From contig JABXIG010000005.1 in assembly GCA_013373205.1 (NCBI GenBank), forward strand, positions 1 to 64,000: a DNA stretch of 64,000 nt, in the 5' to 3' direction. Below the pieces are notes generated by a model. It saw only the letters and a program-made list of their open reading frames with translations. It did not search any database and was not told the origin of the DNA. The position numbers and the translations under genes are program-made. Positions 2,846 to 55,615 of this stretch are shown here, piece after piece; the first letter of the stretch is position 1, and each line of letters starts with the position of its first letter. This DNA is from Methylocystaceae bacterium (GTDB lineage: Bacteria > Pseudomonadota > Alphaproteobacteria > Rhodospirillales > Terasakiellaceae).

Positions 2846-5461
2846 ATGAGCCATATCAGAAAGTCTAAACTTGCGAGCGGCGTTTTTTGGCTGGATTTCT
2901 TGGGAGCTGACCTTCGCGTACTATGCGGATGTCCGGCTGATTCCGTTAAACATATGATGAAACGCGGGGTGATTATGTCCAATGAGGCAAGCCCCGTTTT
3001 TCATGAATCCGGCCCAAATGCCATTCTCTTATCCGACCTAACCGTCCAAAAAGGCAGCTTTGCCAATCTCGGGGAATTCCCGGTTTTGCAAATGCTCTAT
3101 CGTCAGGGTATGATCCTGCCTAATCATCCGGGCAACACAGGGGTTAAACCCCTCTTGATGGGCCACCCGGATCAACTGGCTGCGCAAATTCAATATATCC
3201 ATCGTGGCAATTACGGTCTTCTCAATGAAGATGAAATGATCGAGGTTGGAACACCCGTTGACCAAGCGCGCGCCTTCATGCGCCTGAAACTGAAATTTGC
3301 TTTTGGTAAAATCGCCGATTCTGAAGACTTGCTTGACAGTCTGGTGATTGAAAGCACCCCAACCCCAATTCGCAATGGGGTATCAGTCAGACGTCTCAGT
3401 ACCAATATCTTTGAATTTGAATATAAGGGCGAACTGGTCACAGTTGATCTGAATTTAGGGCAGAATGAACAATATGCCCCGTCTTACAATCTCGGACACT
3501 ATCAGGTCGGGCGGGAATATTTTTCGGTGGTTCATAGTGGCGAAGGCGACGGCTGGGACATTGAACGCCCCAGCATGGCCAGCGTCATTACGTTTCAGGG
3601 CAAAGTCTACCTGATTGATGTGGGACCAAATATAGAAACCACCTTACATGCACTTGGTATTGATATCAGCGAAATTGACGGCATCTTCATGACCCATTGT
3701 CATGATGACCATTTTGCCGGGCTACCATCGCTTATTCGATCAGATCACCGTATCAAGTTTTATTCAACTGCGCTGGTGCGCCAAGCCACCGTTAAAAAGC
3801 TTTGCTCCCTCATGTCGCTGGATGAAAGCCGCTTTGAGTATTTCTTCGAGGTTCATAACCTGCAAGATGGCATCTGGAATAATGTGGAAGGCTTGGAAGT
3901 CAAACCTGTCTTCTCCCCCCACCCGATGGAGACAACCGTCCTGTTTTTCCGTACCCAATGGGGAGCTGGCTATAAAAGCTATGCCCATATGGCCGATATT
4001 GCCTCTTTTGACGTGCTGGAAGGTATGGTCACCGAAGACGACAGCCAACCCGGTCTCACCCGCGAATTTTGTGAACAGATTAAAGCAAACTATCTGGAAC
4101 CCGCCGATATCAAAAAAGTCGATAATGGCGGCGGCCTGATCCACGGTATGGCAAAAGATTTCAATGAGGACCGTTCCGGCAAAATCATCTTTGCCCATAC
4201 GGCACGTCCCTTAAATGAAAATGAACGCCAGATTGGCAGCGGCGCCCCTTTCGGTACAGAAGATGTCCTGATCCCAAGCAACCATGATTATCTTTTTGGG
4301 CGCGCTTATGGGTTCATGCAGTCCTTTTTCCCGCATTTACCGCAAAATCAATTCCGGCTATTGCTGAATCATGAGGTCGTTAAATTCAACCCGGAAGAAA
4401 TCATTCTGCGTGATGGTCAAGAGATTGAGTACACCTACTTCCTACTGACAGGGTCGGCAGAGATGCTGGATCAAAGCCAGACCATCCACCGTATGTCAGC
4501 CGGATGTTTTATTGGTGATATGCAAGGGCTTTGCGACTTGACCGCCTGTGCGACCTACCGTGCCGTCAGTTTTGTCAGAGCCTTAAAGCTGCCAATGGAT
4601 ATGTATAAGGAGTTCGTCAAACGTAATGACATCTTCCAATCCATTGCCTTGCTAGCTGAAAAGCGCGAATTATTGCAAAAATCCTGGCTCTTTGGCGGAT
4701 CAATATCGGATGGTCGTAAAAATGCCATCGCAACGACCATGCATGTCACCAAACATACCGACATTCTGCATGATTATGATACAGTGCGCGATTATATCGG
4801 CCTAATCAAGGAAGGTAGCGTCCATTTAAAACTAGGGGATGAAATCTTCTTAACATTGGGACCGGGTGAAAGCCTGTTTGAAGATCATGCCGTTTATGGC
4901 ATGGAAAGTATCTTTAATCTGGAATTTTCCGAGCATGCAGCCATCGCCATGATCCCCATTGTCACCATTAAAGAAGTTCCCGTGGTGCAATGGAAACTGC
5001 TGGAAAACATCGCACGGCAAATGCGTATTCTGGCAAACTCCGAAGACTGGGATAATTCTTTGCTCAGCTGGCACAAAGAATACAGCGTGGGCTTACGTGC
5101 GATTGATGAAGACCATAAACAGCTTTTGGCCCTGACCGAAGACCTGATTACAGCAATTGATGAAAAGAAACCGACTAAAGACTTGCAAAACATCAGCCTA
5201 ACCTTGGCTGAATTCACACGTACCCATTGTGAGCGCGAGGAAAAAATCTTTTTAGCCTCTGACTATTCTGAATCCCATACCCATATCGCCAAGCATCAAT
5301 CATTGATCGAACAAATGAACGATCTCCATGAGAAATGCGCGACCCCATTTTCACAACAGGAAGCTGACGCAAATGTGCGTTTTTTGAAAAGGTGGGTGCT
5401 GCTGCATATTCTTTTAGAGGATCGAAAATACGCCTCCTACATCATGAAAAACAAAAAATAG
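2846..5461 (+). CDS. Metallo-beta-lactamase fold / cNMP-binding / bacteriohemerythrin fusion
   Basis: This 871-residue multidomain protein has a metallo-beta-lactamase motif HCHDDH at about residues 284-289. Two regions resembling cyclic-nucleotide-binding domains follow (about 500-620 and 640-735). The C terminus, from about residue 740, is a bacteriohemerythrin with the di-iron ligand pattern DEDH, HCEREE, HIAKH and HILLED. The start is the ATG preceded by aaggggaag; the N-terminal LRVLCGCPADSVKHMMKRG looks like part of the family. A role linking O2 or NO sensing to hydrolase activity is possible but is inference. No operon partner is evident. Confidence 0.8.
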   Translation: MSHIRKSKLASGVFWLDFLGADLRVLCGCPADSVKHMMKRGVIMSNEASPVFHESGPNAILLSDLTVQKGSFANLGEFPVLQMLYRQGMILPNHPGNTGVKPLLMGHPDQLAAQIQYIHRGNYGLLNEDEMIEVGTPVDQARAFMRLKLKFAFGKIADSEDLLDSLVIESTPTPIRNGVSVRRLSTNIFEFEYKGELVTVDLNLGQNEQYAPSYNLGHYQVGREYFSVVHSGEGDGWDIERPSMASVITFQGKVYLIDVGPNIETTLHALGIDISEIDGIFMTHCHDDHFAGLPSLIRSDHRIKFYSTALVRQATVKKLCSLMSLDESRFEYFFEVHNLQDGIWNNVEGLEVKPVFSPHPMETTVLFFRTQWGAGYKSYAHMADIASFDVLEGMVTEDDSQPGLTREFCEQIKANYLEPADIKKVDNGGGLIHGMAKDFNEDRSGKIIFAHTARPLNENERQIGSGAPFGTEDVLIPSNHDYLFGRAYGFMQSFFPHLPQNQFRLLLNHEVVKFNPEEIILRDGQEIEYTYFLLTGSAEMLDQSQTIHRMSAGCFIGDMQGLCDLTACATYRAVSFVRALKLPMDMYKEFVKRNDIFQSIALLAEKRELLQKSWLFGGSISDGRKNAIATTMHVTKHTDILHDYDTVRDYIGLIKEGSVHLKLGDEIFLTLGPGESLFEDHAVYGMESIFNLEFSEHAAIAMIPIVTIKEVPVVQWKLLENIARQMRILANSEDWDNSLLSWHKEYSVGLRAIDEDHKQLLALTEDLITAIDEKKPTKDLQNISLTLAEFTRTHCEREEKIFLASDYSESHTHIAKHQSLIEQMNDLHEKCATPFSQQEADANVRFLKRWVLLHILLEDRKYASYIMKNKK

Positions 5462-21171: not shown

Positions 21172-21600
21172 TCAGCCGCCCATGGCATGAATATAGATAC
21201 GGCGGATGATTTCCATATCTGTGGCAGAGAGTTGTCGGGCTTGGGTCATTTCGATAAATTTAGCTCCCGCTTCAGCCACTTGATCAAAGGGCGGATCAAT
21301 CTCGGTAAACTTCACCCCATGAATGGGCACAAAACCGTCTGCCGTATCAACAGAGGCCACATCGGGAAAGGCCATGGTGGCATCACTTTTGGCAACACCG
21401 ATTTTGTCCAAAATCAGGACGAGACCATTGTCGGGAAACGCGACAACATCTTCATCGTCATAATCGCGCTCGACCTCTTCCACCACATTCAGGACAGGTA
21501 AAGAAGGGCCGCTTAAGACGGAGCCATTATCAAACACCATAAAACGCATGCGCGCACTAGTGGGTTGTTTATGAAAAAAAACAAATCTTGGCTCAGTCAT
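21172..21600 (-). CDS. Unrecognised 142-residue protein, end of nifENX operon
   Basis: I do not recognise this family. The protein has no cysteines, signal peptide or membrane segment, and reads as a mixed alpha/beta cytosolic protein with an acidic stretch (EEVERDYDDED) near residue 50. The ATG at 21600 is the likely start. The frame stays open upstream into fdxB, which argues against a longer product. It starts 28 nt after fdxB and ends at the operon terminator, so it should be NifA-regulated with nifENX. Confidence 0.75.
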   Translation of the reverse strand: MTEPRFVFFHKQPTSARMRFMVFDNGSVLSGPSLPVLNVVEEVERDYDDEDVVAFPDNGLVLILDKIGVAKSDATMAFPDVASVDTADGFVPIHGVKFTEIDPPFDQVAEAGAKFIEMTQARQLSATDMEIIRRIYIHAMGG

Positions 21601-21628
21601 CTTAAACGGCTTCTCTTTAGAACAATGA

Positions 21629-21955
21629 TTATTCAGCAGCCACAGCACTTGGGGCATGTGACATACAGGCTTTCGGACAGACCTTGAAACAGGACGTACA
21701 ACCAATACAGTCGAGCTTGTTTTTCAAGCTCATGACCATAGAGGTATCATCGGAAAAACCATCATCATCGTCGTCATCGTAATCGTCATAATCATCGTCA
21801 TCATTGGCCGCTTCGCGTTCAACCAAATCAAACACATCGCGCGGACAAACTTTAAAACAACGACCACACCCGATACAGTTGGTTTGATCCAGTTCCATAA
21901 TAAACTCAGGCGTCCATTCGGTACCGCCCAAGGTAATCCCTGTAATTTCTGACAT
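21629..21955 (-). CDS. fdxB: Ferredoxin III, nif-specific (FdxB), 2[4Fe-4S]
   Basis: The 108-residue ferredoxin has two four-cysteine motifs, CIGCGRCFKVCP and CIGCTSCFKVCP, typical of nif-specific ferredoxin III. The linker between the two clusters is unusual: about 14 of 17 residues are Asp. It lies in the nifX-DUF269-DUF683-fdxB order common to diazotrophs and probably donates electrons to nitrogenase or to cofactor assembly. Confidence 0.9.
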   Translation of the reverse strand: MSEITGITLGGTEWTPEFIMELDQTNCIGCGRCFKVCPRDVFDLVEREAANDDDDYDDYDDDDDDGFSDDTSMVMSLKNKLDCIGCTSCFKVCPKACMSHAPSAVAAE

Positions 21956-26505: not shown

Positions 26506-27432
26506 TTAGAAACAATATGGGTCTGCAATCCAACCTTTAAGAATTTTTAAGTCTCTGGCTGGCAGATACGCATAAGCCCCCATCAAATCGTCATGTACCA
26601 TTTCGGCTAATTTATGGAAGCTTTTCTTAGACGTCAGCATAAAGAAATACCAGGCCATAGGATAACCGACTGCGCGGTCAAAATCATGGATCGCGCGTCC
26701 CAAGGGCTGCCCTTGTCCAATTTGGTCAAAATCAATATCGGGAGCCAGATCAAGCTGGCGCGATTTCGGAATAATTTCGGTCGACACTTCGCCAAACGCG
26801 CCTTTATGTTTGGTGAAGTTCAGCACCCAATAATCACTAAAATGCCCATTACCTTGCGCGCTTGAAACTTTCCATTCTTCGTAAAACCGTTTGAAGGTGC
26901 TGGCCCGATTAATAGACATTTTTAGATCAAACATATTGCGGGCCGTACGATACACATAACGCGGCAAGGCGATTTGGCGTGGCTCCACCCGTTTATAATC
27001 AATCGGATCGATTAAATCTTCAAAATCATCAGCAATATTTTCATCATCAAAAAGCGGACGATCAACAACTTCCTGCACTTCATCCACTTCCAACTGAATA
27101 TAGCTCAGCGGGTCTTCTCCTATCGGGATCACTAGATACAGTGTCTTGCCAATAATTCGGGTAACATAAAGCGCATCAGCGCCAAAGGCTTCGTATAGGC
27201 CGAGGATATCATCCACATCCTGACTTTCCACCCAGTCACGTAAATTATCGCTGATCTGGTTGCCATTTTCATCAACCAGACCGCCTACGCGGTACCATTC
27301 ATCCTTAGTGTGGGCGAGCGAAACATCTTTATCGCTGAAAACGTGCGCGATACTTTGTAGCAATGCTTCGTGATCTTTACGCACAAGTGTATCTGTACAG
27401 GCTTTTTGAAGCGTTTCTTCATCCAAAATCAT
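26506..27432 (-). CDS. Unrecognised 308-residue protein, end of nifHDK operon
   Basis: I do not recognise this family. It is an acidic cytosolic protein with no signal or membrane segment and only two cysteines. Residues ~120-150 are Asp/Glu-rich; the C-terminal half is aromatic-rich (DYWVLNFTKHKGAFGE, GYPMAWYFFMLTSKK). It is the last gene of the nifH operon, about 107 nt after the small DUF6129-like gene and before a terminator. That is where Azotobacter carries orf/lrv genes. Co-regulation with nitrogenase is inferred from position. Confidence 0.78.
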   Translation of the reverse strand: MILDEETLQKACTDTLVRKDHEALLQSIAHVFSDKDVSLAHTKDEWYRVGGLVDENGNQISDNLRDWVESQDVDDILGLYEAFGADALYVTRIIGKTLYLVIPIGEDPLSYIQLEVDEVQEVVDRPLFDDENIADDFEDLIDPIDYKRVEPRQIALPRYVYRTARNMFDLKMSINRASTFKRFYEEWKVSSAQGNGHFSDYWVLNFTKHKGAFGEVSTEIIPKSRQLDLAPDIDFDQIGQGQPLGRAIHDFDRAVGYPMAWYFFMLTSKKSFHKLAEMVHDDLMGAYAYLPARDLKILKGWIADPYCF

Positions 27433-29115: not shown

Positions 29116-30687
29116 TTAGCGAACGAGGTCGTAGTTATAGTCTGTTTCACCCATATACTTCGTCTCGGCATCCAACTTCTCAAGAACAGCGTTCGTGATA
29201 GTTGTGAGCATTTGCATCGCACCTTCGTAACCGTAAGTCGTTGCACGGTGTGTGTGGTGACGATCGAAGATCGGGAAGCCGATACGGATCAGTGGAACTT
29301 CAAACTCAGCACCTTTATGGAAGGTGTCACGTTGAATAAACTTACCGTAGGAGTTACCAATCATGAAGTCAGGCTTGTTGGTGAACATCAGTGAGCGGAA
29401 GTGCCACAGGTCTTTACCAATGTGAACCTGTGTGTTCTGACCATAAGGAGAGTCAGCACAGATTTTGTCCAAAGCTTTTTTGTAGCGTTTGTTCGCGTGG
29501 TTAACCAACACATCGGTCGGTTCAGCACCAACTTCCAGAAGGAAGTTAACCATACCAAGAACAAAGTCAGCATCGCCATATACAGCGAACTTCTTACCAT
29601 GCAACCATGCATGGGAGTCAGTCATCATATCAACAAGGCGACCACGTTCTTTTACAAGGCAATCTGCAATCGGTTTACCTGTAATTTCAGAGACAGTCAT
29701 CAAGAATTGGTCAGTTGCACCCAGACCCATCGGAATAGTCACGTCTGTTGCAGCTTGTTTCCAAGTGTTTTTGACGAACTTGCGGCTCTTAACTGATTGC
29801 CAAGGTTGCAAGAACAAAGTGTCCCCAGAGTTTGGCGCATCTTTAACTTCGTCGATGGTTGTCCCACCTTCGTACATGCGGTATTTGCCGTCTGCAGGTG
29901 TGTCAAGCACTTCGCTTGGATCGCCAAGCATCGTGTAATCCACATCCATTTCTTCAAGCATACGCTTGATGACACGATAGTTGCCAAGATAAGTCTCAAA
30001 GCCCGGTACAACGTTAATTTTACCGTTAGAACCAACTTCCTTGTCATCCATGAAGTTCAGCGTAAAGTAACGCATGATACCTTCCATCATGTTGTCGAAC
30101 CCGGTTGTGTGGGACCCTACAAATGACGGGGTGTGCGCGAAGGGAAGCGGGAAATCTTCGTCAATATGACCTTCTTTTTTAGAGTTGTTGATGAATGCGT
30201 TCAAATCATCACCAATAACCTCAGCCATACAGGTTGTAGATACCGCGATCATTTCAGGTTTGTACAGTGCTTTGGCGTTTGCCAGACCGTCAAACATGTT
30301 TTTCTGACCACCGAATACGGCTGCATCTTCTGTCATAGAGTCAGAGACACAAGCAACCGGCTCTTTAAAGTGACGGTTAAAGTATGTGCGGAAGTAAGCC
30401 ACACAACCTTGTGAACCATGCACATAAGGCAATGTCTTTTCAAAACCCAGGGCAGCCAATACGGCACCCAGAGGCTGACATGCTTTTGCCGGGTTTACGG
30501 TCAGAGCTTCGCGTTGGAAGTTCAGTTCTTTATATTCTTCAGAAGTAGACCATTCGAAGACTTCAGCGATTTTATCGTCTGAGTAACGTTCTTCAAACAT
30601 GTCACGTTTGTTACCGAGGGACTCTTTGTAGTCGTCATCGCGGAAAAGCGGATAACTCGGTTTGATATTGTCAATAGATTGACTCAT
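29116..30687 (-). CDS. nifK: Nitrogenase MoFe protein beta subunit NifK
   Basis: The 523-residue protein equals Azotobacter NifK in length. P-cluster cysteine regions AKACQPLGAV, HGSQGCVAYF and STTCMAEVIGDD are present, and it ends YNYDLVR. The ATG at 30687 follows ggaggag; an 8-codon extension is possible but unlikely. It forms the alpha2beta2 MoFe protein with NifD. Confidence 0.97.
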   Translation of the reverse strand: MSQSIDNIKPSYPLFRDDDYKESLGNKRDMFEERYSDDKIAEVFEWSTSEEYKELNFQREALTVNPAKACQPLGAVLAALGFEKTLPYVHGSQGCVAYFRTYFNRHFKEPVACVSDSMTEDAAVFGGQKNMFDGLANAKALYKPEMIAVSTTCMAEVIGDDLNAFINNSKKEGHIDEDFPLPFAHTPSFVGSHTTGFDNMMEGIMRYFTLNFMDDKEVGSNGKINVVPGFETYLGNYRVIKRMLEEMDVDYTMLGDPSEVLDTPADGKYRMYEGGTTIDEVKDAPNSGDTLFLQPWQSVKSRKFVKNTWKQAATDVTIPMGLGATDQFLMTVSEITGKPIADCLVKERGRLVDMMTDSHAWLHGKKFAVYGDADFVLGMVNFLLEVGAEPTDVLVNHANKRYKKALDKICADSPYGQNTQVHIGKDLWHFRSLMFTNKPDFMIGNSYGKFIQRDTFHKGAEFEVPLIRIGFPIFDRHHTHRATTYGYEGAMQMLTTITNAVLEKLDAETKYMGETDYNYDLVR

Positions 30688-30753
30688 TTCTTTACTCCTC
30701 CCGCGCCACAATAATGTGAACAGTACGGGTAAGATGGTTACACGAGTTGAGAA

Positions 30754-32238
30754 TTATTCACCGGCAGCGGCCACAGGTGCTTCGTCATCATCAGAAGCAA
30801 GCCAAGGCGCTTTCAGTTTATTCCAACACGGGTTGTTCAGGGTCATGTCCATGTCACGGGCAAAGATGGCAAAGCCGTCGTAACCGTGGTAAGGACCAGA
30901 ATAATCCCAAGAGTGCATTTGACGGAAAGGGATGCCCATTTTCTGGAAGATGTACTTCTCTTTAATACCAGAACCGATCAGGTCAGGTTTCACGCGCTTG
31001 ACGAATTCTTCGAATTCAAAGCCAGTCACATCATCATAAATCAGGGTCGCATCGCCCATTTCCTTAATTGTACGGTCGTAGTCATCGTTGTGAGCGAACT
31101 CATAACCAGTCCCAACAACTTCCATACCCAAGTCTTCGTAAGCACCGATAACGTGACGCGGACGCAGGCCACCGATGTACAACATGACTTTTTTGCCTTC
31201 CAGACGCGGACGGTATTTTTCAATAACCGCATCCATTTCCGGCTTGTATTTTGCGATAACAGCTTCACATTTTTCTTGAATACTTTCGTCGAAGAATGCA
31301 GCAATTTTACGCAAAGATTCAGCCATCTTGGTCGGACCAAAGAAGTTATATTCCATCCAAGGAATACCGTACTTTTCTTCCATGTGACGAGAGATGTAGT
31401 TCATGGAACGATAGCAGTGCAGCAGGTTCAGCTTCACTTTTGGTGTCAGTTCCATTTCAGAGATGGTGCCGTCACCAGACCATTGTGCAACAACGCGCAG
31501 GCCCATTTCTTCCAAAAGGATACGAGATGCCCAAGCATCACCACCGATGTTGTAATCGCCAAGGATCGCAACGTCGTAATCAGTTGCTTCCCAAGTGTCA
31601 TCATCGTCACGAGCACCCAAAGTCCAGTCACGAACAGCGTCGTTGGCAATGTGGTGACCCAAAGACTGAGACACACCGCGGAAACCTTCACAACGTACCG
31701 GAACGATTGGTTTTTCGTATTCAGCGCCTTTTTTCTTAGAAACGGCTTCGATGTCGTCACCGATCAGGCCGATGGGACATTCTGACTGTACGGAAATACC
31801 TTTGTTCAGCGGGAACAGAGTTTCGATTTCGTCGATCAGTTTTTCCAGTTTCTTGTCACCGCCAAATACGATGTCTTTTTCCTGGAAGTCAGATGTGAAG
31901 TTCATTGTACCGTATGTGTTGATACCAGTTGTACCCACATAATAGTTACGACGACCTGCACGTGAATATTGACCACAGCCAACAGGGCCGTGTGAAATGT
32001 GGATCATGTCCTTGATCGGACCCCAAACCACACCCTTTGAACCAGCGTATGCACAACCACGGATGGTCATAACACCAGGGGCAGATTTACGGTTGGACGT
32101 AATGCATTTCTTGGACTGTTCAACTTCGTGATCGTTGACAGTCAAGTGTTTTGCACGATCCTTTTTCGCTTTTTCAGGATAAACTTCAAGAACTTCTTGA
32201 ATAAGTGCTTGAGTTTCCTCGCGTGTCATAGAAGACAT
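30754..32238 (-). CDS. nifD: Nitrogenase MoFe protein alpha subunit NifD
   Basis: The 494-residue protein carries P-cluster ligands at Cys62 and Cys88 ([18 protein letters not shown]) and [11 protein letters not shown]. The FeMo-co ligands are Cys in [12 protein letters not shown] and His in [19 protein letters not shown]. Numbering follows the Azotobacter protein closely. It is the Mo-type subunit, not Vnf or Anf. It is preceded by aaggagaag and lies 86 nt after nifH. Confidence 0.97.
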
Positions 32239-32324: not shown

Positions 32325-33218
<894 letters not shown>

Positions 33219-33255: not shown

Positions 33256-33271
33256 CGCAAGGGATGTGCCA
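33256..33271 (-). promoter_or_regulatory. Sigma-54 promoter of nifHDK
   Basis: The minus-strand TGGCAC-ATCCC-TTGCG is a full -24/-12 match, about 62 nt before the nifH ATG. Confidence 0.92.
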
Positions 33272-33328: not shown

Positions 33329-33344
33329 TGTAGTTGACGTGACA
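33329..33344. promoter_or_regulatory. NifA upstream activator site (nifH)
   Basis: TGT-agttgacgtg-ACA lies about 92 nt upstream of the predicted nifH transcription start and only 25 nt from the draT ATG. Confidence 0.83.
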
Positions 33345-33369: not shown

Positions 33370-34182
33370 ATGGTTAAAAACACAAAACACGACATTTTGT
33401 CTGCTCCCTTACCAAAATGGGCCAAATTGCCCATCAATAGATGTAATATTCCGTCAGAAACCCTTGGGAGCCTTGGCTTTCAGGCCCACCCGCGCCCCTT
33501 ACATCTGGATGGGGTGCATAGCTTACATAAAGATTTGTTCACCAAACTGGATGTGTATCCTGATCCTGAAGACAGACAACAACAGTTTATCGACTATATG
33601 AATGTGCATTTCGCGGCAAATGACCCCGCACGTAAACAGACAAAACGCCATAAAGCCAGTTATCAAAGCCTTCTTCGAGGCTGGTTCTTTGATTCAGACA
33701 GTCGAGAGGCCGCCGTTTTAAAAGGATGGGTCGAAAGTCGCTTTGGATTGTCGCCAAACTTTCATCGTGGACGCTTAAACGACAAAAGCTCTGCCCTCTA
33801 TGCCAATTTCATGCAGATGCGGGCAGATGGCTTATATGCGACATACGCTTTAGAAGCCCAAATGGACCTGCTTTATAGCTATTGTCAGTATGAATTATCA
33901 AAGCTGCGCATTCCCATTACTTTATATAGGGGCGTCAATCGTCTGGAAGAATTCACCATCCTGCATAAACAAGACAAACGCGCTGTTGTCCTGTTTAACA
34001 ACCTCAATTCCTTTAGTTCAGATAAGGAAACCGCAGGCGCTTTTGGCGACATTATTATAAAGGTACGCGTCCCTAAAGAGAAAATTCTCTGTTTTCCGGC
34101 CCTGCTGGATCAAAAATTCACCAGCGAAAATGAATTTATGGTGATTGGTGGGTTGTATGATGTGACATTGTCGTATTACTGA
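33370..34182 (+). CDS. draT: Dinitrogenase reductase ADP-ribosyltransferase DraT
   Basis: The 270-residue protein matches DraT (WAKLPINRCNIPSETLGSL near the N terminus, ITLYRGVNRLEEF, LNSFSSDKETAGAFGD). It transfers ADP-ribose from NAD+ to Arg101 of NifH and switches nitrogenase off on ammonium or energy loss. It is divergent from nifH, as in Rhodospirillum rubrum, but draG is not next to it. No ribosome site precedes the ATG. The next gene begins about 94 nt downstream. Confidence 0.92.
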   Translation: MVKNTKHDILSAPLPKWAKLPINRCNIPSETLGSLGFQAHPRPLHLDGVHSLHKDLFTKLDVYPDPEDRQQQFIDYMNVHFAANDPARKQTKRHKASYQSLLRGWFFDSDSREAAVLKGWVESRFGLSPNFHRGRLNDKSSALYANFMQMRADGLYATYALEAQMDLLYSYCQYELSKLRIPITLYRGVNRLEEFTILHKQDKRAVVLFNNLNSFSSDKETAGAFGDIIIKVRVPKEKILCFPALLDQKFTSENEFMVIGGLYDVTLSYY

Positions 34183-34275
34183 CATTCATCATTCATTTTG
34201 TTTAATTTCAATAAGTTAAAAACTGGTTCACTTCTTGCTTTGAATAATTCAAATTTATTTTTGGAGAGTGAAATC

Positions 34276-35139
34276 ATGTCGCAGGACCAGTTTAAAGAAA
34301 TCTTTGAGAACATTAAATCCGGCCAAGTTATTCCTTATCTGGGCGCTGGCGCTTTAGAAGGGGCTGTCAGTCTTGAAGATCAATCCCCCATCCCTGCCGA
34401 TAGCGACAGTTTAATTCTGGCAATGAATGATGGCCGTCCCATGGCACCAAAACTGATGTGGGAATTTGCCCGCGCTGCCATGAACCTGGAACTGAAAAAG
34501 GGCCGCAGCTTCATCACCCGTTTTTTAAATAAAACATATGGGGAAAAACAATGGACCCGCGCAGTCGTTCACGACTGGCTTAAAAGCCTGATGTTGCCCT
34601 ATGTTATCGATATCAACCGCGACACCCAGTTACAAGACACCTACAAAAACACCCCGCACAATCTGGTGCGCGGCTGTGCGCGTTTGGGCGGAACAGATTA
34701 TCGCTTCATCATCCATGCTTATGACGGCAAGGAATATAAAGAGATTAAACAGGAACAAATGGATATGTCCCTGCCCCTATTGTTTAAACCCATGGGTAGT
34801 CCTCTGCCGGAACCGGCCACTTATATTGCTTCAGATGCAGATTATGTGGATTACATCACCGAGCTGATGGGCGGCTTTGCCATCCCCAATCCGTTAAAAG
34901 AATATCGCAAGGAAAAGCAATATCTCTTTATAGGCCTGCGTCTTAACCGCGATACCGAACGGATGGTCATGAGCGATATCGTCTATTCAGGCGGCACCCC
35001 AAAAGGCTGGGCTTTGTTGCCGGATGCATCGGAAAAAGAAAAACGCTTCTGTAAGAAAATGAACATTGAAGTGATTGATGCCGATATCAGCGATTTTCTT
35101 GATGTTGTTGCGCCGGACCTTAAAGGTGCTGCGGCATGA
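34276..35139 (+). CDS. SIR2-like domain protein downstream of draT
   Basis: The 287-residue protein shows a SIR2-like layout: IPYLGAGA near residue 20 (GAG nucleotide loop), YVIDINRDTQLQ where SIR2_2 proteins have TTNYDxxLE, LLFKPMGSP where they have KLHGS, and YLFIGLRLNRDTE near the end. The catalytic His of HGS is replaced by Met. I infer an NAD/ADP-ribose-binding protein with impaired or no NADase activity. The ATG at 34276 follows ggagag. It overlaps the next gene by atga and follows draT, so a role with DraT is plausible but unproven. Confidence 0.65.
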   Translation: MSQDQFKEIFENIKSGQVIPYLGAGALEGAVSLEDQSPIPADSDSLILAMNDGRPMAPKLMWEFARAAMNLELKKGRSFITRFLNKTYGEKQWTRAVVHDWLKSLMLPYVIDINRDTQLQDTYKNTPHNLVRGCARLGGTDYRFIIHAYDGKEYKEIKQEQMDMSLPLLFKPMGSPLPEPATYIASDADYVDYITELMGGFAIPNPLKEYRKEKQYLFIGLRLNRDTERMVMSDIVYSGGTPKGWALLPDASEKEKRFCKKMNIEVIDADISDFLDVVAPDLKGAAA

Positions 35140-35558
35140 TCAAACGGCGTGACGACAACCCCTTCCCCATTCTTGCCCTGTGGGAAATGGATGCCACCCA
35201 TCAAAAAGCCTTTGAACTTTTAGACGGGGTCAATGCGGCCAGTGATGAAGACCTCTCGACCATGGTTGATGTCTTCCTGACCCACACCAAAGACCACTTT
35301 GAACGCGAACGTCAAATGATGCTGGAAACTGATTTTACCGCCATTACGGAACATGAGGCCGAACATGGTCGCATTGTTTCTGATATCGTCCAATTTCATG
35401 GGGCCTTAAAACGCGGCAGCATAAAATTCGCCCGTATGTTCTTTAAGGACTCTTTACCGGAAATTCTGGACGTTCATATCCGGCAGGTCGACAGTGCGCT
35501 TGCCGCCCACATCAAGGCTTTTCGCGACAAAGAGAAGACAGACCAATCAGTTGCCTAG
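35136..35558 (+). CDS. Hemerythrin-domain protein, draT operon
   Basis: The 140-residue four-helix hemerythrin has di-iron ligands ATHQKAF, KDHFERERQ, HEAEHGRI and HIRQVD. It would bind O2 or sense O2/NO in the cytosol. Its start overlaps the SIR2-like stop (atga), so the two are co-translated. Its 3' end overlaps draG on the opposite strand by 47 nt. Confidence 0.85.
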   Translation: MIKRRDDNPFPILALWEMDATHQKAFELLDGVNAASDEDLSTMVDVFLTHTKDHFERERQMMLETDFTAITEHEAEHGRIVSDIVQFHGALKRGSIKFARMFFKDSLPEILDVHIRQVDSALAAHIKAFRDKEKTDQSVA

Positions 35559-36432
35559 CCTGATCTTCACATTCAGCAAGCACCTTTTTGTCCATCACTT
35601 TTAACCAGCGTTTCGGGATGGCCGGGGCACCATAAAATGCCCCGGCAATCATCCCGGTAATGGCCCCTGTGGTATCAGCATCCCCGCCGCGATTAACCAC
35701 ATCGATCAGGCAATCTTCAAAATTATCGGTATCAAACAAGCTTTGAAACACAGCCTTTAACGTATCAACAATAAACCCGCTTGGATTTTCCTGTCGTTTT
35801 TTATCAAACCGAAATTCAGGATGGCTGGCGACCAGATCATTGGCAATGGTCTTTAATCCTAATACAGACCCCTGCCCCGTCAAGCATAGCTGAACCATCT
35901 TGATCACAGCCAGTGTCCCCGCATCGGACAAGGGGTTATTGTGGGTTACATGTGATTGAAGGCGTGCTTTTTCGCCAACGTGTTCCTCGTCTTGTCCCAG
36001 ACTGCACAATGAAATGGGCAAGGTGCGCATACAGGCCCCATTCCCGCCATCATATTCATTTAACGCAACCTGAATTTGACCTTTTTGGCGGTATTGAACA
36101 ATGCCGCGTCGAACCGTATTGCCAATATCCACAGGCTTGCTTGCCATCCAGTCACTGAAATATTGCGCGATCATCAAGGGATCAACAAAACGTGCTTTCA
36201 AAATGGCACGCCCGAGATAAAGACTCATTTGCGTATCATCGGTAACGGCACCTGCTTTCAGGTTTAGCCAACCTGCCCCAACAATATCACGATGAACTTT
36301 GTGCTGTGCCTGAATTTCGCGCGGGGTCATAAATTCCACCGTCGCACCCAAGGCGTCACCAACTGCCAGCCCTTTATATGCAGCGGCTGCGCGGTTGATC
36401 ACATCCTCACTCTTCGGGACCGAAACATTCAT
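35512..36432 (-). CDS. draG: ADP-ribosyl-[dinitrogen reductase] hydrolase DraG
   Basis: The 306-residue ADP-ribosylglycohydrolase has the dinuclear Mn motifs GDALGATVEF, TDDTQMSLYL and GGDADTTGAITG. It removes ADP-ribose from NifH Arg101 and reactivates nitrogenase. I chose the ATG at 36432; it lies inside the nifQ 3' end, so draG is the last gene of the nifB-nifQ operon and not in a draTG operon. Its end is antisense to the hemerythrin gene. Confidence 0.92.
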   Translation of the reverse strand: MNVSVPKSEDVINRAAAAYKGLAVGDALGATVEFMTPREIQAQHKVHRDIVGAGWLNLKAGAVTDDTQMSLYLGRAILKARFVDPLMIAQYFSDWMASKPVDIGNTVRRGIVQYRQKGQIQVALNEYDGGNGACMRTLPISLCSLGQDEEHVGEKARLQSHVTHNNPLSDAGTLAVIKMVQLCLTGQGSVLGLKTIANDLVASHPEFRFDKKRQENPSGFIVDTLKAVFQSLFDTDNFEDCLIDVVNRGGDADTTGAITGMIAGAFYGAPAIPKRWLKVMDKKVLAECEDQARQLIGLSSLCREKP

Positions 36433-36961
36433 CGTAATCCACACAAACATCACAACTGGGCGAGCGACAGACATAAATCCCTTCGGTCTGGCATAGCTCG
36501 CGATAGATAAATTTTTTCCATTTCATATTATGTACATTGCGCTTGGCCATCTTGGGGAAATTATTTTCCATAAGAGCCGTCAGTTCGGTGCGGTTTTGAA
36601 GCCCCAAATCCTGCCAAAGATGGTTTTGCCCCATACAGGCGCTTGAGACAATTTCCGCAATCCAAATTTCGGATGCACAGTTTCTGGCACGATTTTTCAG
36701 AAGATATTTTTTCAAATCCCTCCATTCCACCGCACGTTCATTAGAAACGGCCGTGCGTGCTGGTCTGAATTTGCGCATCTGAAGCTGCGGAAACTGGAAA
36801 CGCACCAAACGGCGAAAGGTCAGACGATCCAACCCCAGCCAGTTGGGCATTTTATCATCCCCATCCATCCAGGTTGCCAACATGCTGGAAAGCGGCCCAT
36901 CATTCACATGACCGCGTGCACACGACATAATCTGTTTTTTATAAGCGGTTCTCGGCTGCAT
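36407..36961 (-). CDS. nifQ: NifQ, molybdenum donor for FeMo-co
   Basis: This 184-residue protein ends with the NifQ signature C-x4-C-x2-C-x5-C (CRSPSCDVCVDYDEC), which holds a Mo-Fe-S cluster. Upstream is the helical NifQ core (IVSSACMGQNHLWQDLGL). It passes Mo to NifEN. It follows a [2Fe-2S] ferredoxin gene and overlaps draG. Confidence 0.9.
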   Translation of the reverse strand: MQPRTAYKKQIMSCARGHVNDGPLSSMLATWMDGDDKMPNWLGLDRLTFRRLVRFQFPQLQMRKFRPARTAVSNERAVEWRDLKKYLLKNRARNCASEIWIAEIVSSACMGQNHLWQDLGLQNRTELTALMENNFPKMAKRNVHNMKWKKFIYRELCQTEGIYVCRSPSCDVCVDYDECFGPEE

Positions 36962-55210: not shown

Positions 55211-55615
55211 TTATTTCTTGTTACCCACAACCGTGTCGCGGTAGGCCATATCCGATTCAAGAATATGGTTAATCAGCCAGTTTCGAAGATAGGCATTCAT
55301 ACTTTCTGCAATCAGATGCGCACTTGATCCGCCCAGATTAAACGACTGGCGAACGGCGCTCAGCCATTCTTCAAAGGTACGATGTTCGATCTTGTGGGCC
55401 TGAAAGTCGGCATAATCGAAGGCGCGCAGCAGGTCTTCTTCTGCGCGAAAATGTTCTTTGACATACAGATCAAGATCATCAAACACATAAGCGATCATAC
55501 CGCCTTCATCTTCGGCCCTTGCAAGACGGTTGATCAAGGCAACCAGTTGCTGATGCTGCCTGTCAATTTGGGGAATACCGATATTATAGTCGTCTTTCCA
55601 TTCAATCTGTTCCAT
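55211..55615 (-). CDS. Bacteriohemerythrin in the TRAP-maiA unit
   Basis: The 134-residue protein has the hemerythrin di-iron ligands IDRQHQQ, KEHFRAEED, HKIEHRTF and INHILESD. It binds O2. It starts 4 nt after the dctM stop and precedes maiA by 24 nt, so it is in the same operon. An oxygen-delivery role for a ring-cleaving oxygenase is speculative. Confidence 0.87.
   Translation of the reverse strand: MEQIEWKDDYNIGIPQIDRQHQQLVALINRLARAEDEGGMIAYVFDDLDLYVKEHFRAEEDLLRAFDYADFQAHKIEHRTFEEWLSAVRQSFNLGGSSAHLIAESMNAYLRNWLINHILESDMAYRDTVVGNKK

Follow-up and report, generated by a model that had tools for sequence, protein, structure and literature searches.

A predicted SIR2-fold pseudoenzyme of nitrogen-fixation gene clusters, most probably of the PnfA family, encoded between draT and a hemerythrin gene in a Methylocystaceae bacterium

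The DNA analyzed here, called the window throughout, is the whole stretch from position 1 to 64,000 of contig JABXIG010000005.1 (GCA_013373205.1) of a Methylocystaceae bacterium, read on its forward strand. Its open reading frames include a plus-strand trio, encoding DraT, a SIR2-like protein and a hemerythrin, that is flanked by minus-strand nifH and draG:

29116–30711, nifK, and 30754–32238, nifD, both after nifH
32325–33194, minus strand, nifH, divergent from draT and the SIR2-like gene
33370–34182, plus strand, draT (270 aa; PF07357, E 1e-90), between nifH and the SIR2-like gene in the window lineage
34276–35139, plus strand, PnfA-like SIR2-fold pseudoenzyme gene (287 aa), with N114 kept and the catalytic His replaced by Met173
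35136–35558, plus strand, nif-type bacteriohemerythrin gene (140 aa), overlapping the SIR2 stop through an ATGA
35512–36474, minus strand, draG, convergent with the hemerythrin gene, whose 3′ end it overlaps by 47 bp

An earlier note on this DNA read the SIR2-like gene and the co-translated hemerythrin gene as a candidate control module linked to draT. The ATG start of the SIR2-like gene is backed by homologues, and the overlap between its stop and the hemerythrin start is real (35139 versus 35136). However, draT lies 93 bp away, and the SIR2-like gene carries a separate sigma-54/NifA signature. The candidate promoter elements of the region are:

33256–33271, minus strand, candidate sigma-54 promoter of nifHDK, TGGCACATCCCTTGCG, 1 mismatch
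33329–33344, plus strand, candidate NifA site TGT-N10-ACA in the nifH–draT intergenic region
34169–34184, plus strand, candidate NifA upstream activator site TGT-N10-ACA, TGTCGTATTACTGACA, upstream of the SIR2-like gene
34224–34239, plus strand, candidate sigma-54 (−24/−12) promoter, TGGTTCACTTCTTGCT, 2 mismatches, upstream of the SIR2-like gene

The same elements recur upstream of the gene at most of 30 loci of clade M, the clade of the window protein (see below), although these loci are related and hence not independent. A sigma-54 site with at most two mismatches precedes the start in 22 of the 30, compared to a mean of 1.7 and a maximum of 5 in shuffled sequences, and a TGT-N10-ACA site in 25 of the 30 (shuffles: mean 1.9, maximum 7). 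Most of these sigma-54 sites lie 50 to 65 nucleotides upstream of the start codon, and the window's site lies at a similar distance. The signature is present even at loci that carry draT; on the plus strand of the nifH–draT interval, no sigma-54 site with at most two mismatches was seen. As judged from the sequence, the SIR2-like gene has a NifA/sigma-54 promoter signature of its own. Counted over the whole window, TGT-N10-ACA sites number 30 where 17.4 were expected, and no shuffle reached 30.

The encoded SIR2-like protein (32.5 kDa) contains every motif that had been read in it: Y-L-G-A-G-A-L at residues 21–27 (the GAGA loop), VIDINRD at 110–116 in place of the TTNYD of catalytic SIR2 proteins, LLFKPMGS at 168–175 in place of their KLHG, and LFIGLRLN at 217–224. 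Its assignment to the SIR2_2 family (PF13289) goes beyond chance, because its score of 37.4 bits exceeds the Pfam gathering cut-off of 24.5; the family model is matched by all 14 members of our alignment A2, and NCBIfam holds no model for the window protein. An AF2 model built from 16 homologues (mean pLDDT 88.2, pTM 0.89) has the SIR2 Rossmann fold, and a comparison of the model over its whole length with the PDB returned BcThsA (Z 19.1), KomC (18.8) and DSR2 (17.9), with SIRT1 at 11.9. A sequence profile weakly recovers the same ThsA/KomC/DSR2-type families. Profile search and structure prediction both bear out the SIR2 membership that the note had proposed, and by the predicted model the fold is that of a defence-type SIR2. 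The window protein resembles the SIR2 NADase domains of ThsA, KomC and DSR2 along its entire fold but, unlike them, it has its catalytic His replaced, stands alone without a sensor domain and is linked to nif genes.

We now turn to the catalytic residues. N114 aligns with the catalytic Asn of TTNYD (ThsA N112, DSR2 N133) and is kept; M173 aligns with the catalytic His of KLHG (ThsA H152, DSR2 H171, KomC H146), which is lost, just as the note had said. In ThsA, mutation of N112 or H152 abolished activity, with an oligomerisation caveat for H152, and the N112A and H152A proteins lost NAD+ binding (PMC7272460). In DSR2, mutation of N133 or H171 decreased activity, and H171A still bound NAD+ (PMC10981675). 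We scored both positions in 49 nif-linked members, taken from the window, whole genomes, contigs and plasmids, and the Asn–His pair is intact in none of the 49. The residue pairs are N/M (28), N/L (4), W/L (8), W/H (6), W/S (1), W/W (1) and W/Y (1). In the 32 clade M proteins the Asn is kept and the His has become Met (28) or Leu (4); in all 17 of clade W a Trp stands at the Asn position, and the second position is H, L, S, W or Y. The two clades are 23–28% identical, and their functions may differ.

Ordinary SIR2_2 proteins behave differently from the nif-linked ones. Seven of them, from six genomes, served as controls and all keep both catalytic residues; four of the genomes (G000, G051, G301 and G042) also have a nif-linked member, one (G148) has nifH without such a member, and one (G471) has no nifH. 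The last is the source of L106, an intact (N/H) generic SIR2 and the nearest intact relative found. The nif family has five invariant residues (E72, R77, P172, D187 and R211) at which L106 differs. Together with the loss of the catalytic pair, these family-only invariants suggest that catalysis is gone and that other residues are under strong constraint; a protein with an N/M or W/H pair could have residual activity. When a tree was built with SIR2_2 outgroups, clades M and W fell on one branch (99/95, in all bootstrap trees). A single origin of the two clades is likely, though not certain because of the long branches in this tree. The window's own genome has two other SIR2_2 proteins (G000:C28:5009-5488 and G000:C67:1956-2297) that keep both catalytic residues, and they may be defence NADases.

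The missing residues weigh heavily on the possibility that the window protein is an active NAD+-dependent deacetylase of Nif proteins, as was suggested for ZMO1821 of Zymomonas mobilis, which rises under N2 fixation and was regarded as a probable deacetylase (PMC8600466). The SIR2 annotation, the location in a nif island, and the acetylation of NifA, NifH and NifK under N2 fixation (PMC8600466) agree with such a role. However, the general-base His has become Met or Leu in all of clade M, the catalytic Asn has become Trp in all of clade W, and the defence NADases rank well above sirtuins in the structure comparison. The window protein has only two Cys in its whole length and therefore no Cys4 zinc module, so that with Met173 both features of a sirtuin deacetylase are absent. 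We rejected this reading on its missing catalytic residues and regard it as very unlikely, and the same evidence counts against the printed Zymomonas suggestion that nif-linked SIR2 genes encode deacetylases. A defence effector, with NADase activity that would shield the nif island from phage, would suit the nearest folds (ThsA, KomC and DSR2) and the weak PADLOC matches of some family members to ThsA and LmuA models, but it fails for the same missing residues, the catalytic pair being lost in 49 of 49 members. The protein is also a stand-alone domain that lacks a sensor domain, the promoter signature is of the NifA type, and the phenotype of an apparent orthologue lies in nitrogenase activity. 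We rejected it as well and find it extremely improbable.

The distribution of the family follows nitrogen fixation. Among 274 genomes of Gammaproteobacteria (the class of Thiohalocapsa halophila), it is present in 22 of 26 genomes with nifH and in 2 of the 248 others (p 2.5e-26), where single absences are soft because some assemblies are incomplete. Of the 24 carriers, the two outside the nifH-positive set contribute L106, the generic SIR2, and a protein of G575 whose gene is at the end of a contig. In the window's own class (289 genomes), the counts are 6 of 9 with nifH and 0 of 280 others (p 1e-10). The family is not essential, since three of the nine alphaproteobacterial and four of the 26 gammaproteobacterial genomes with nifH lack it. 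Within the nifH-positive Gammaproteobacteria, it is found in 9 of 12 genomes with draT and in 13 of 14 without (Fisher p 0.31), and its co-occurrence with draT is not above what nif predicts. The SIR2-like gene tracks nifH, not draT, and it regularly accompanies nitrogen-fixation gene clusters, being carried by most of the nif-positive Gammaproteobacteria sampled.

These counts decide against the control module that the note had proposed, in which a pseudo-sirtuin senses NAD+ or ADP-ribose and, together with the hemerythrin, tunes the inactivation of NifH by DraT. DraT uses NAD+, which counts in favor of the proposal, and draT stands directly upstream of the SIR2-like gene in the window and upstream of it, on the same strand, at nine other loci (L007, L009, L010, L017, L018, L086, L087, L093 and L095). 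Our first scan of contigs also gave a draT match above the Pfam cut-off in all 19 genomes recovered, that of G303 being weak (38.5 bits, within a frame of 766 residues), and by itself would suggest a link to draT. However, that scan used one protein as its query and was thereby biased to close relatives, the remote clade being recovered by whole-genome searches; the wider sample corrects it. At loci without draT, the SIR2-like gene lies directly beside nifH and divergent from it (e.g. L085, L088, L090 and L094; L096 is also beside nifH). In the stretches shown of rhizobial symbiosis plasmids, the gene comes after nifT and draT is absent, as in the order nifA-nifB-4Fe4S protein-nifZ-nifT-SIR2 of R. 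etli p42d, and clade W genes in general come after nifT, often in the order nifB-fdx-nifZ-nifT. The family is also apparently present in Pseudomonas stutzeri A1501, where the authors did not find draT or draG (PMC2820453). Co-occurrence, promoter and literature thus led us to reject a draT-specific module, and we hold it to be quite unlikely. The expectation that homologues sit in nif clusters was right and the expected link to draT was not, so that the note's interpretation as a whole is partly supported.

The neighboring hemerythrin had been called a di-iron protein, and its sequence agrees. It scores 28.5 bits against PF01814 (cut-off 25.3) and 58 against TIGR02481 (51.75), and it has all seven di-iron ligands common to bacteriohemerythrins (H22, H54, E58, H73, H77, H114 and D119, in the pattern H-HxxxE-HxxxH-HxxxxD), which are invariant in ten aligned hemerythrins (alignment A3). 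Compared to other bacteriohemerythrins, it belongs to a nif-linked subfamily with a VDSALAAH or MDSALAAH C-terminus that is confined, among the genomes searched, to those with clade M. This nif-type hemerythrin (>150 bits) is found in 11 of 40 genomes searched, all 11 with clade M, and in 9 of the 11 it lies within the nif cluster near the SIR2-like gene; around the hemerythrins of G301 and G296, no nif query matched within 15 kb. A hemerythrin gene accompanies the SIR2-like gene at only about one in three clade M loci. The protein probably handles O2 or NO, and its subfamily is a candidate O2/NO partner of the SIR2-like protein. A literature search for a SIR2 protein with a nif cluster and a hemerythrin found no paper. 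Elsewhere in the window, a gene at 2846–5461 joins a hemerythrin domain to a long N-terminal region resembling, by eye, a metallo-beta-lactamase, and a stand-alone hemerythrin-domain gene lies on the minus strand at 55211–55615. Several gammaproteobacterial loci have a small conserved protein, weakly DUF1289-like and with the Cys motif CxxCGRSxxEI, just downstream of the SIR2-like gene (L009:10812-11138, L010, L011:2246-2488, L085:8978-9202 and L087); it precedes the hemerythrin where one exists, and it was not seen in the window.

A characterized protein suggests a physiological role. In P. stutzeri A1501, the 31.7 kDa protein PnfA (PST1325) has a NifA- and sigma54-dependent gene that is linked to nifHDK and runs in the opposite direction, and it is similar only to proteins of diazotrophs and to a second subfamily at 20% identity (PMC2820453). 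For Azoarcus BH72, that paper cites both nitrogenase switch-off and a homologue of PnfA, and A. vinelandii has a homologue too. In 2010 PnfA was compared with UspA/ETF-alpha, and its SIR2 nature went unrecognized (PMC2820453); PST_1325 was later listed as a ‘SIR2 family protein’ (PMC11332353). Compared by description, the window gene shares with pnfA its divergence from nifHDK, a sigma-54/NifA promoter signature, a product of about 32 kDa, confinement to diazotrophs and a SIR2 annotation; it differs in that draT stands between it and nifH and a hemerythrin gene overlaps its stop. From position, orientation, size, promoter and database name, we infer with some force that the window protein is most probably a member of the PnfA family. 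Other nif-cluster SIR2-like genes are those for Rcc03262 of Rhodobacter capsulatus, which went undetected in a nifA mutant (PMC6925177), for ZMO1821 and for the SIR2 family protein of R. etli p42d. The last belongs to clade W, with Trp for the catalytic Asn and 23–28% identity between its clade and the window protein, and Rcc03262 and ZMO1821 are put there by gene position only.

The consequences of losing PnfA were measured by others. A non-polar PST1325 mutant had 23% nitrogenase activity at 0.5% oxygen (microaerobiosis) with unchanged nifH transcription, lost nitrate-supported N2 fixation, showed wild-type-like nitrogenase activity under strict anaerobiosis and was restored by complementation; the authors termed it Nif+ (PMC2820453). 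Nitrogenase activity in this mutant is lower, not deregulated, contrary to the control function that the earlier note had in mind. A chaperone-like or cofactor-maturation protein for nitrogenase, for which the SIR2 fold is a scaffold without a small-molecule ligand, would agree with the position of clade W genes after nifT and with the eroded GAG loop, where Gly25 is replaced by Ala, Tyr, Glu or Asp in some family members. However, Gly23 and the fold are retained, and normal activity under strict anaerobiosis is unexpected for a general maturation factor. We consider this role unlikely.

Combining the mutant phenotype and the NifA–sigma54 dependence of the apparent orthologue with the fold prediction, family-wide pair loss, nif association, promoter signature and hemerythrin ligands computed here, we think it probable that the window gene encodes a SIR2-fold pseudoenzyme of a family specific to nif clusters, most probably PnfA, and that it lies within the NifA/sigma-54 regulon and helps nitrogenase to stay active while the cell respires oxygen or nitrate. 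Its ancestor would have been a SIR2 protein of the defence type, similar to ThsA, KomC and DSR2, whose Asn–His pair was then lost. The protein would most likely be non-catalytic, ligand-responsive or partner-binding, and would help to supply nitrogenase with electrons or to protect it from oxidants, a role that fits best because the PST1325 mutant shows its defect solely during respiration of oxygen or nitrate. The modeled fold makes a nucleotide ligand plausible, but binding of NAD or ADP-ribose is not assured because ThsA N112A and H152A lost NAD+ binding (though DSR2 H171A bound it). In the window lineage, the protein would be made together with the di-iron hemerythrin, which may be its O2/NO partner in clade M, and DraT would be a neighbor and not a necessary target. 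An orphan nitrogenase factor, whose apparent orthologue when mutated brings nitrogenase activity down to 23%, thereby gains a predicted fold, a probable ancestry and a non-catalytic mechanism that can be tested. More tentatively, a defence SIR2 NADase may have been recruited once, lost catalysis by two routes (the His in clade M, the Asn in clade W) and become a nucleotide-sensing pseudoenzyme that, assisted in clade M by a dedicated hemerythrin, couples nitrogenase to the respiratory or redox state (NAD(H), ADP-ribose-type ligands, O2 or NO).

The surrounding nif cluster (29116–50720) looks like a horizontally transferred gammaproteobacterial one, because the window's nifH and nifD are 84–98% identical to those of Chromatiales/Sedimenticolaceae and of the L007 MAG but only about 67–77% identical to those of other genomes of its own class, and because NifL, NifA and rnf adjoin it. 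At locus L016 (2312–10001), a 7.7 kb insertion with a 1458-residue open reading frame and several smaller ones lies between draT and the SIR2-like gene. Two reading frames of the window's nif cluster, at 21172–21705 and 26506–27432, match no Pfam or NCBIfam model, and the latter has homologues at 32–38% identity in other nif clusters.
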